Positions 1-62,745 of a stretch of DNA of 64,000 bases are shown piece by piece. The notes beneath the pieces are model-generated. The model made no database searches. It saw nothing but the letters and a program-made list of their open reading frames with translations, and was not told the origin of the DNA. The DNA is from Bacteroidales bacterium. GTDB lineage: Bacteria > Bacteroidota > Bacteroidia > Bacteroidales > P3. The stretch lies in contig JAISIA010000007.1 of the NCBI GenBank assembly GCA_031262295.1, positions 1 through 64,000 on the forward strand. Direction: 5' to 3'. Within the stretch, counting starts at the first letter, position 1, and each line of letters opens with the position of its first letter. The translations under genes and the position numbers were made by a program.

Positions 1-28
1 CCGAAACTCCCCAAATTGGAAAACGCCA

Positions 29-60
29 TTTGCATTTGTCAAAATAATTTTATATCTTTG
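29..60 (+). promoter_or_regulatory. Bacteroidota-type promoter in L1 (TTTG-N20-TATCTTTG)
   Basis: TTTG at 29-32, 20-nt spacer, TATCTTTG at 53-60; same spacing in L2 and L3. Confidence 0.6.
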
Positions 61-165
61 CCGAAACAAAGTTTCCTTTAAGGGCAATAAAGTCTTAATT
101 CTCCCAATACTTATTTTTATTTTTAATATCAAGATAATAGCTTAATTATTAGCTTATTATCTTTA

Positions 166-245
166 AATAAATCTTCGTTTTAGAAAATTATTTCTTCGTT
201 TTAGCAAAATAAAACGCTGTTTTATTTAAATATTTCTTCGTTTTT
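166..245 (-). repeat. 21-bp repeat array A1
   Basis: aaatcttcgttttagaaaattatttcttcgttttagcaaaataaaacgctgttttatttaaatatttcttcg. Confidence 0.75.
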
Positions 246-563
246 TTCTGAAAAAATAAGGATTTTGTTTTTAAAATTAAATTTTTGGAAAATTATATTA
301 AAATTTGCTTGGATTATATTGAGGATTAATAAATTAAAAAATTGAAAAAATTTTAACAAATTTTGGAGTTGAGAAAGTTGAAAAAATGAAGAAATGTTAA
401 AAATTCTTGAAATTTTGTGTTTTTTACAAGGCTTAAATGTTAAAATTTGGGGATTTTGCGGGGAAATTTTGTTAATTTTTTTTCTGAAAAAATAAGATTT
501 AAATCTTTGTTTTTGTGGAATTGATTGTTAATTATTGCCTTCCTTATGCCAAGCGGTATTTAT

Positions 564-9220: not shown

Positions 9221-9267
9221 GTCGGCAACCGACCCGCAACGGGCATTTAGTTATCCTTACGGAAATA
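9221..9267 (+). repeat. REP-like hairpin R1 with two consecutive CAA-triloop hairpins
   Basis: GTCGG-CAA-CCGAC (9221-9233), then CCCG-CAA-CGGG (9233-9243), then ttatccttacggaaat. Confidence 0.7.
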
Positions 9268-9304: not shown

Positions 9305-9402
9305 ATAAAACGCTGTTTTAATTTACTAAAACGAAGAAATAATTTATTAAAACGAAGAAATAATTTTCTAAAACGCTGTTTTAATTTACTCAATCTTCGT
9401 TT
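9305..9402 (+). repeat. 21-bp repeat array A2
   Basis: taaaacgctgttttaatttac/taaaacgaagaaataatttat/taaaacgaagaaataattttc/taaaacgctgttttaatttac, ending in an inverted half-unit atcttcgttt. Confidence 0.8.
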
Positions 9403-9480
9403 GTCGGCAACCGACCTTTATTTTCCCTGCGGAAGTAAAGAATATTACATTTATACATTAATAATTTCATAAAAATAAAA
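9403..9480 (+). repeat. REP-like hairpin R2 plus trailing block duplicated from R1
   Basis: gtcggcaaccgacctttattttccctgcggaagtaaagaatattacatttatacattaataatttcataaaaataaaa, closely matching 9254-9310. Confidence 0.75.
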
Positions 9481-14663: not shown

Positions 14664-14765
14664 AACAGCGTTTCCTTTTACTAAATCTTCGTTTAAAAAA
14701 ATTATTTCTTCGTTTTAGTAAATTATTTCTTCGTTTTAAAAACTTAAAACGCTGTTTTATTTTTA
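14661..14765 (-). repeat. 21-bp repeat array A3, overlapping the stop codon of the AsmA-like gene
   Basis: taaaacagcgtttcc..aaatcttcgttt..attatttcttcgttttagtaaattatttcttcgttttaaaaacttaaaacgctgtttta; first TAA is the CDS stop. Confidence 0.75.
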
Positions 14766-14795
14766 AAAAAAACAGCATTTTTTTAGCAAAAAAAT

Positions 14796-14959
14796 AAAGT
14801 TTTTTAACAATAAAACCAGACTTCCGACCGCCAAGCGGCTTTTATTTTTCCTGTCAGAATAGAGTTTTTTAACAATAACACCAGACTTCCGACCGCCAAG
14901 CGGCTTTTATTTTTCCTATCGGAATAGAGTTTTTTAACAATAGAACCAGACTTCCGTTA
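14796..14959 (-). repeat. 65-bp tandem repeat (2 full + 1 partial) of type-II REP-like hairpins
   Basis: (a)(a/g)agttttttaacaataacaccagacttccgaccgccaagcggcttttatttttcctatcggaat at 14796, 14861 and partially at 14926; CCGC-CAA-GCGG hairpin. Confidence 0.85.
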
Positions 14960-25645: not shown

Positions 25646-25680
25646 CTATTTTTTGCTATAAAAAACTAAGATTTTTACAA

Positions 25681-25783
25681 AATAAAACAGCGTTTTGTAA
25701 AATTAAATCTTCGTTTTAGAAAATTATTTCTTCGTTTAAAAAAATTATTTCTTCGTTTTAGAAAATTGAAACGCTGTTTTAAT
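25681..25783 (-). repeat. 21-bp repeat array A4
   Basis: aataaaacagcgttttgtaaaattaaatcttcgttttagaaaattatttcttcgtttaaaaaaattatttcttcgttttagaaaattgaaacgctgtttta. Confidence 0.8.
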
Positions 25784-31654: not shown

Positions 31655-31876
31655 TTATTTATCTTTACATTCAAAAGTGAAGCCTAATGATGCACCATTT
31701 TCCCAACCAGGAATATTATCCCAATTAATGTCTTTGCAATCACCATCAAAATCTGTAATATCAATTGATTGTGAATTACCACTATAAGCCATAGTACAAG
31801 TACAATCAGACTTTGTGTTGCATGCTGTAAAAGATAATGCTGCAAATACTCCAAGTACGAATAAAATCTTTTTCAT
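31655..31876 (-). CDS. Small Cys-rich lipoprotein (paralogue of 30358-30597)
   Basis: Lipobox LSFTAC; mature CNTKSDCTC..CKDINWDNIPGWENGASLGFTFECKDK. Confidence 0.75.
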   Translation of the reverse strand: MKKILFVLGVFAALSFTACNTKSDCTCTMAYSGNSQSIDITDFDGDCKDINWDNIPGWENGASLGFTFECKDK

Positions 31877-32396
31877 AAGTTTTAAAATTTTTTAATTTTC
31901 TCTACTCTATTTTTTTGGATTTTCGAGTTACTCCATAACTTGTGGGCAAAAATAAATAAATAAATAATAATAGCAAGTAATTTTTTGTATTTTTTTACAA
32001 AAATCACATAGTTACAAGTTCAAATAAAGTATAATTTAACAACTTTTTAAGGAATTATTTCTACGTTTTTGTTCAAAAAAAACAACAAAAATTAAAACTA
32101 ATCCCTTTACTCGCCTAATATCTCTTTAAATATATAACCTAAGAATCTAAAATTTTAAAAGTATTTAACATTTCACACCCTATTTTTTACCCCTTTTTTA
32201 ACACTTTATTAAAAAAATTTGCCAAAATTTAACAATTTTTAACATTTCATTCAATTTTTCAATTTTTACTCTTCAAAAATTTGTTAAAATATTCTAAACT
32301 TATTAATCATTTAATTTTCAATATAATCTAAGCAAATTTTAATATATTTTTCTAAATTTTTCATTAAAAAAAACAAAACCTTATTTTTTCAGAAAA

Positions 32397-32475
32397 AAAC
32401 GAAGATTTTTCTAAAATAAAACGCTGTTTTAATTTGCTAAAACGAAGAAATAATTTGCTAAAACGAAGATTTATT
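32397..32475 (+). repeat. 21-bp repeat array A5
   Basis: aaaacgaagatttttctaaaataaaacgctgttttaatttgctaaaacgaagaaataatttgctaaaacgaagattta. Confidence 0.8.
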
Positions 32476-32579
32476 CAAGGATAATAAACTAATAATAAGG
32501 CTATTATCTTGTCATCAAAATTAAAAATAAGTTGTGGGGGAATTTCTATGCCTTTTGCCTTAAAGGCTCTTTGTTTTGG

Positions 32580-32611
32580 CAAAGATATAAAAAAGATTTG
32601 ATAAATGCAAA
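32580..32611 (-). promoter_or_regulatory. Promoter in L2 (TTTG-N20-TATCTTTG)
   Basis: Minus strand TTTG (32611-32608), 20-nt spacer, TATCTTTG (32587-32580). Confidence 0.65.
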
Positions 32612-32638
32612 TGGGAAATTTCAGTTTTGAAATTTTGA

Positions 32639-32668
32639 ATTTAACATTTGAAGGAAAAAATGTTAAAT
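32639..32668. promoter_or_regulatory. Perfect 11-bp inverted repeat upstream of the L2 promoter
   Basis: ATTTAACATTT-gaaggaaa-AAATGTTAAAT; identical at 42637-42666. Confidence 0.55.
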
Positions 32669-32929
32669 ATTTTATAGATTGAATAGAAAACCAAAAATTA
32701 CAAATACTAACTAAGTATTATTTAATATAATAAAACAATAAAGAAAATTCAATAAAACAAGATGTCAATTACAAAATAGGAATTATTTTAATGAATTATT
32801 ACTATAAATTACTATTTTTGGATAAATAAATGTTTCCCTTAGATTATTTTTTCCCTTGCTGCGTTATATTTATAAATAAATGAGTATTTATTTTTATTGT
32901 ATTTTTGCAAATAATATTTTTGGTATAGT

Positions 32930-42003: not shown

Positions 42004-42213
42004 ATTTAATAAAAATAATAATTCCTCAGCTTTTATTAGTATAGAAATAGCGAAAAGACAAGTTATATATTACAAATAGGCATTATTTTTATACGAAAAA
42101 TTAAAATTACCATATTTTTTAACATTTCAAACCCTAAAAAACACCCCTTTTTTAACACTTTAGTAAATTTTTTCGCCAAAATTTAACATTTTTTAACATT
42201 TCATTCAATTTTT

Positions 42214-42246
42214 GTCGGCAACCGACCTTTATTTTTCCTAACGGAA
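42214..42246 (+). repeat. REP-like hairpin R5 inside L3
   Basis: gtcggcaaccgacctttatttttcctaacggaa; absent from L1 and L2 at the equivalent position. Confidence 0.8.
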
Positions 42247-42352
42247 TTTCATTTTTTCAAATTATTAATTATCAATACAATCAAAACAAAATTTAATATG
42301 TTTCCCCCGATTTTCAATTAAAAAACTCAAAACCTTATTTTCCCAGAAAAAA

Positions 42353-42472
42353 AACGAAGAAAAATTCAAATAAAACGCTGTTTTATTTTGCTAAAACGAA
42401 GAAATAATTTTCTAAAACGAAGATTTATTTTGCTAAAATGAAGATTTATTTTGCTAAAATGAAGATTTATTT
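42353..42472 (+). repeat. 21-bp repeat array A6 (about six units)
   Basis: aaaacgaagaaaaattcaaa/taaaacgctgttttattttgc/taaaacgaagaaataattttc/taaaacgaagatttattttgc/taaaatgaagatttattttgc/taaaatgaagatttattt. Confidence 0.85.
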
Positions 42473-42577
42473 AGATATAATAAGCTAATAATAAGATTAT
42501 TATCTTGAAAGCAAAAATGAAAATAAATTTTGGAAATATTAGAGCTTTATTGCCCTTAAAAGGCTCTTTGTTTTCGG

Positions 42578-42609
42578 CAAAGATATAAAAAAGATTTGAT
42601 ATATGCAAA
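42578..42609 (-). promoter_or_regulatory. Promoter in L3 (TTTG-N20-TATCTTTG)
   Basis: Minus strand TTTG (42609-42606), N20, TATCTTTG (42585-42578). Confidence 0.65.
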
Positions 42610-42636
42610 CGGGAAATTTCAGTTTTGAAATTTTGA

Positions 42637-42666
42637 ATTTAACATTTGAAGGAAAAAATGTTAAAT
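42637..42666. promoter_or_regulatory. Perfect 11-bp inverted repeat upstream of the L3 promoter
   Basis: ATTTAACATTT-gaaggaaa-AAATGTTAAAT. Confidence 0.55.
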
Positions 42667-42921
42667 ATTTTATCATTTATATATTTTCATAGAGCAATTC
42701 AATTGATATTTATTTGTTTATTTATCTTATTTAGGTGTAAAATTTATATCAATATTTGCTTATTTTTCTTATCAAATTATAGATTATATTTACCCTCTTT
42801 ACAAATTGGAAGAAATTTTATTATTTTTTTGCGTTACTGTTGTTATAAAATTGAAATTTTGATGTATATTTGCCTCTTATTTGCTTTTTTTATAAGTAGA
42901 AAATTATTAAAAATCTTAGTT

Positions 42922-57110: not shown

Positions 57111-57150
57111 GTCGGCAACCGACCTTTATTTTGTCCTACGGAAGTCTGGT
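57111..57150 (+). repeat. REP-like hairpin R6 (left arm of composite inverted repeat)
   Basis: gtcggcaaccgacctttattttgtcctacggaagtctggt. Confidence 0.8.
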
Positions 57151-57244: not shown

Positions 57245-57328
57245 CCTAAAACGAAGATTTAAGAAATTATTTCTTCGTTTTAGTAAATTATTTCTTCGTT
57301 TTAGAAAATTAAAACAGCGTTTTATTTT
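57245..57328 (-). repeat. 21-bp repeat array A7
   Basis: cctaaaacgaagatttaagaaattatttcttcgttttagtaaattatttcttcgttttagaaaattaaaacagcgtttta. Confidence 0.8.
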
Positions 57329-57354: not shown

Positions 57355-57397
57355 AAACCAGATTTCCGTAAGGAAAATTAAAGGTCGGGTGCCGACC
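57355..57397 (-). repeat. REP-like hairpin R7 (right arm, inverted)
   Basis: aaaccagatttccgtaaggaaaattaaaggtcgggtgccgacc; hairpin GGTCGG-GTG-CCGACC. Confidence 0.8.
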
Positions 57398-57537: not shown

Positions 57538-57568
57538 TTTGGTATTTATTAAAAAAGTTGTACCTTTG
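57538..57568 (+). promoter_or_regulatory. Promoter of tRNA-Asp (TTTG-N19-TACCTTTG)
   Basis: TTTG at 57538-57541, 19-nt spacer, TACCTTTG at 57561-57568. Confidence 0.75.
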
Positions 57569-62650: not shown

Positions 62651-62745
62651 GGTCGGCAACCGACCTTTATTTTTCCTAACGGAAGTCTGGCTGTTTTTTT
62701 ATAAAATCATCAATCCGACAGGTAAAATAAAAGTCAGTTGCCTAC
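62651..62745. repeat. REP-like inverted pair R8
   Basis: GGTCGGCAACCGACCTTTATTTTTCCTAACGGAAG.. and the reverse complement of ..caatccgacaggtaaaataaaagtcagttgcctac. Confidence 0.8.

Follow-up and report, generated by a model that had tools for sequence, protein, structure and literature searches.

In the window, the whole 64-kb stretch of DNA analysed here, three intergenic loci share one order of parts, and they raise the question of whether they are non-coding RNA (ncRNA) genes, copies of a non-autonomous element, or decayed spacer DNA. The first-pass annotation had proposed a family of three that could be either of the first two.

Copies, anatomy and promoter

All three loci belong to a single family of non-coding intergenic repeats of ~0.5 kb. 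Matches to an nhmmer profile place L1 at 1..491 (+ strand, profile positions 52-540), L2 at 32151..32677 (- strand, positions 12-540), and L3 at 42103..42675 (- strand, two adjoining matches, positions 12-542). L1 lacks its left end, profile positions 1-51, because window and contig share their first base, and L3 features a longer minisatellite as well as a REP-like insert near 42214-42226. The common order of parts described for L1, L2 and L3 was borne out and all three are real copies, but the family is not limited to three members. The boundary word TTTAACATTTGAA has 104 matches in the own genome, 54 forward and 50 reverse, versus 0 matches for the same word read backwards as a control, and the copy number is estimated at ~100. 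A search of the genome assembly (2.04 Mb, 89 contigs) with the L2 interval 32200-32660, a check that the first-pass annotation had suggested, found copies at no fewer than 40 strong places, L2 itself included, with the best 40 of 399 candidates scored; the matches other than L2 are 77-87% identical to it, plus shorter pieces. The element is 508-868 bp long, with a median of 543 bp, and 100 copies of 540 bp would make up an estimated 2-3% of the 2.04-Mb genome. Many contig ends of the assembly fall inside copies, so the element is a likely cause of assembly breaks. No ORF is conserved among the copies, as had been noted before; the longest Met-ORF per copy has a median of 34 aa and a maximum of 78 aa.

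Read from the promoter side, the element consists of an inverted repeat, the promoter, a variable stretch of ~100 bp, a 21-bp minisatellite, a T-rich joint, and an AT-rich tail in which TGTTAAA motifs recur. The inverted repeat, overlooked in the earlier list of parts, is a perfect TTTAACATTT-N8-AAATGTTAAA (28 bp) present in 54 of 55 copies, and it is located at 32640..32667 (-) in L2 and at 42638..42665 (-) in L3. That list gave an ACAAAG(N)CCTTTAAGG block and a hairpin-like block as common parts; both vary between copies and are therefore not a signature of the family. About 40 copies feature a left extension of a further ~210 bp, and all left extensions that could be matched to a core directly adjoin one; many copies also have a right extension of ~90 bp. 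Short copies end in TTTAACATTT / AAATGTTAAA, an AT-rich terminal motif of ~10 bp that is repeated internally too. An outer terminal repeat of long copies, first spotted by eye, was no better than shuffles in 9 of 11 cases and is therefore not claimed.

The minisatellite is located at 165..244 (+) in L1, where it is made of TCTTCGTTTTAG units, at 32430..32469 (-) in L2, and at 42351..42472 (-) in L3. One to three units were counted per near-complete copy, and L3 has about five. The 21-bp unit also stands free outside the element at four places in the window: 9319..9375 (-), 14686..14746 (+), 25673..25781 (+), and 57246..57311 (+), the last with one unit inverted. The core word of the unit occurs 363 times in the own genome versus 1-8 times in congeners, which indicates that the array has been amplified in this lineage too. 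The minisatellite thus appears to be a separate small repeat family that was captured by the element. When arrays and copies are compared, both orientations of the AAAACAGCGTTTT and AAAACGCTGTTTT loops are seen, as might result from the flipping of hairpin loops.

Another repeat in the window is REP-like. Its palindrome, GTCGGCAACCGAC, for which chance predicts 0 occurrences, lies at 9221-9233, 9403-9415, 42214-42226, 57111-57123, 57384-57396, and 62652-62664. This second repeat often adjoins or interrupts the element, and the own genome contains no Y1_Tnp gene. Additionally, a 65-bp tandem repeat of REP-like sequence (14793-14956, 2.5 copies) lies between two convergent genes.

The pattern TTTG-N20-TA(C/T)CTTTG is found exactly three times in the 64-kb window, once per locus, where 0.10 occurrences are expected, and this count was reached in 0 of 100 shuffles of the window. 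The promoter, TTTG-N20-TATCTTTG, is located at 29..60 (+) in L1, 32580..32611 (-) in L2, and 42578..42609 (-) in L3. Among 55 near-complete copies, which share a mean pairwise identity of 73.5% (58-96%), 7 of the 8 positions in the -7 box never vary, and column conservation is 0.93-1.0 in the -33 box and 0.88 in the spacer versus 0.78 for all columns. The spacer is 20 nt long in 63/63 copies though its sequences form different alleles; since the -7 box and the inverted repeat served to select these copies, independent evidence comes only from the -33 box and the spacing. Both boxes fit the sigma-ABfr consensus of TTTG near -33 and TAnnTTTG near -7 (PMC7366714). The enrichment of the pattern, the conserved boxes and the fixed spacing give good support to the earlier assignment of a Bacteroidota-type promoter. 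A reading of the promoter as decayed spacer is unlikely, because it is kept in copies that differ by ~26%, and its sequence suggests that it is probably in use. A similar promoter with a 19-nt spacer precedes a tRNA-Asp in the window (57538-57568), and another is found directly upstream of an RNA in one same-family genome that, recognised by eye, we take to be RNase P RNA.

Context, distribution and spread

The sampled copies are all intergenic and lie beside unrelated housekeeping genes. The 128 flanking ORFs matched 131 Pfam families, none of them in more than 4 ORFs, and the 25 families most frequent in the flanking genes include no transposase. Both neighbours are known for 52 copies, of which 21 lie between divergent and 13 between convergent genes; between co-directional genes, 11 copies point against the genes and 7 along them. 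The orientation relative to the neighbours is unbiased. Because the flanking genes are unrelated and the orientation is unbiased, the idea of a promoter or leader dedicated to a single class of genes was rejected. Beside L2, the segment 31899-31936 (-) matches the DUF805b RNA (Rfam RF02914) at 33.7 bits (E 1e-5), just below the gathering score of 35.6 bits, and several congeners conserve this segment at the equivalent position. It is directly followed by an ORF for a lipoprotein-like protein of 73 aa (MKKILFVLGVFAALSFTACNTK..., 31655-31876, -), a similar start of which is present in congeners.

The L2 site is syntenic in 10 congeneric species, a comparison between species in which both L2 neighbours are kept at 66-77% nucleotide identity, the spacer is shorter, and the element is absent. 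The presence of a copy at a site that is empty in relatives points to copying to new places. Blastn found no near-full-length copy in these 10 congeners and no near-full-length homologue in 149 same-family genomes (E<=1e-10); in both searches the 21-bp array alone matches. No match to the element was found on plasmids or phages, and the exact promoter pattern was not found in viral contigs. A model of the promoter side scores the own copies at 117-122 bits, whereas elsewhere it gives many weak matches of at most 28.5 bits. Homologues in other genera were rejected, since the weak matches inspected (genomes G016 and G027) are ordinary promoters, for example that of RNase P RNA. One other public contig, JAISHK010000006.1, carries the element. 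This contig is labelled Endomicrobium sp. Hm464_bin172, and its gene content and bin name indicate that it is probably misbinned Bacteroidales DNA from termite gut. The 2.3 kb neighbouring its copy is absent from the own genome at near identity, which suggests that the element is present in a second genome. The copy on this contig adjoins a gene for a large secreted-type protein.

The copies are mosaic through ectopic recombination or gene conversion between copies. Pairwise distances in the contiguous left and right halves correlate at 0.33 versus 0.85 for random column halves, and within the left half the correlation is 0.22 versus 0.75. This disagreement between the halves indicates that the copies have been shuffled.

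With a probability of roughly 0.7, the family is a lineage-restricted, high-copy, protein-free intergenic repeat that spread in a MITE-like manner and was later shuffled by recombination or conversion. The element is probably non-autonomous, and this half of the earlier proposal is supported by the ~100 dispersed copies, the empty orthologous sites and the restriction to one lineage. Some traits of MITEs are present, as the element is short, non-coding, multi-copy and dispersed, and the L2 locus is an empty site in 10 congeners. Its terminal repeats are weak, however, and target-site duplications in 32 short copies did not rise above the control (6.88 vs 6.80 nt in mismatched pairs). The Y1_Tnp (PF01797) and DDE_Tnp_1 (PF01609) transposases were absent from the 89 contigs of the own genome, a fragmented assembly from which multi-copy IS may drop out, and RAYT/REP-type or IS4/IS5-type mobilisation was rejected on this basis. 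Since the hallmarks are partly present, the element is classed as MITE-like/BrickBuilt-like by its behaviour rather than as an established MITE.

A non-autonomous element that carried a promoter and had ends bound by protein may have captured the resident 21-bp minisatellite and spread through the genome by a MITE-like route of transposition, after which recombination or gene conversion between copies would have shuffled them. The inverted repeat and the TGTTAAA motifs would be the most likely sites bound by a mobilising protein. The sigma-ABfr-type promoter, if active as predicted, would give transcripts through the minisatellite and the tail, and these could extend into or against the neighbouring genes. 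The ~100 copies amount to natural replicates in which the spread and recombination of such repeats can be studied. Additionally, the family raises the questions of why the promoter has been preserved when most other parts have diverged and of how ~100 extra promoters affect the transcription of their neighbours.

Alternative readings

The first alternative holds that the repeat is transcribed and either selfish or domesticated, and that its promoter with a short RNA, or its repeated protein-binding motif, would be kept functional in ~100 copies by conversion. Such a lineage-specific, genome-wide regulatory or decoy system, which would have spread without target duplications or long terminal repeats, is unlikely.

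A multi-copy family of ncRNA genes, each with a transcript that acts in trans, would account for the near-invariant promoter, the fixed spacing and the fixed order of parts, and the independence of orientation from the neighbours is what free-standing genes would show. The covariation check proposed in the first-pass annotation, run with RNAalifold on 55 copies, found no covarying structure, however. Neither the first 130 nt past the promoter nor the tail showed any structure, and other regions show non-varying pairs only. Conservation is comparatively low just past the promoter, and the hairpin-like block varies between copies. Rfam searches of the element gave no match, whether at the gathering threshold or at relaxed ones. 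A structured ncRNA was rejected for lack of a covarying fold and of an Rfam family on the element, which leaves the ncRNA half of the earlier proposal unsupported; a trans-acting family in general is unlikely.

It is improbable that the copies are retained as portable promoters for driving the next gene. Every copy has a strong-looking promoter, the next downstream gene is on the same strand in 28 of 52 copies, and the Correia elements of Neisseria do drive the next gene (PMC10969869). However, the other 24 of the 52 copies point against the next gene, copies between co-directional genes point against them more often than along them, and the flanking genes are unrelated. A chromosomal binding-site element for a nucleoid or segregation protein, whose function would reside in the TGTTAAA sites and in a 21-bp array with units of two helical turns, is very improbable: TGTTAAA and array motifs are among the invariant columns and the sampled copies are all intergenic and dispersed, but the search of ten close relatives did not turn up the element, an unexpected result if it served a core function of the chromosome, and the invariant promoter would be left unexplained.

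Comparison with known repeats

The MITE-like reading can be set beside several known intergenic repeats. ERIC and other intergenic repeats are alike in kind, being high-copy and intergenic with a lineage-dependent copy number, as here, and a family relation is not expected. To our knowledge, they feature no minisatellite and no Bacteroidota promoter. The Correia elements (CREE) of Neisseria are nearest in copy number and built-in promoters, since they are present in >120 copies and carry promoters (PMC10969869). They differ in being ~0.2 kb long and in belonging to a different phylum. We know of no minisatellite in the Correia element.

The BrickBuilt MITE of Porphyromonas gingivalis is the closest known repeat, judged by its phylum, its layout, its position between genes, its promoter activity and its narrow range of hosts. 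BrickBuilt consists of a leader and a tail around a tandem 23-bp minisatellite, is non-coding and only intergenic, has promoter activity, occurs in modular partial copies, and is restricted by BLASTn to its own species and close relatives (PMC4596501). It is present in 19 copies and features 12-bp IS5-type terminal repeats that match resident ISPg elements, with some target duplications (PMC4596501). Compared by description, the two repeats share their occurrence in Bacteroidota, the intergenic position, the non-coding leader-minisatellite-tail layout, the narrow host range and the modular partial copies. They differ in the minisatellite unit (23 bp there, 21 bp here) and in copy number (19 there vs ~100 here). 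The IS5-type terminal repeat of BrickBuilt, GAGACCTTYGCA / TGAAAGGTCTC, is absent from the present element, the ends of which are TTTAACATTT-like. The present element is further distinguished by one near-invariant sigma-ABfr promoter in each sampled copy and by its strong mosaicism.
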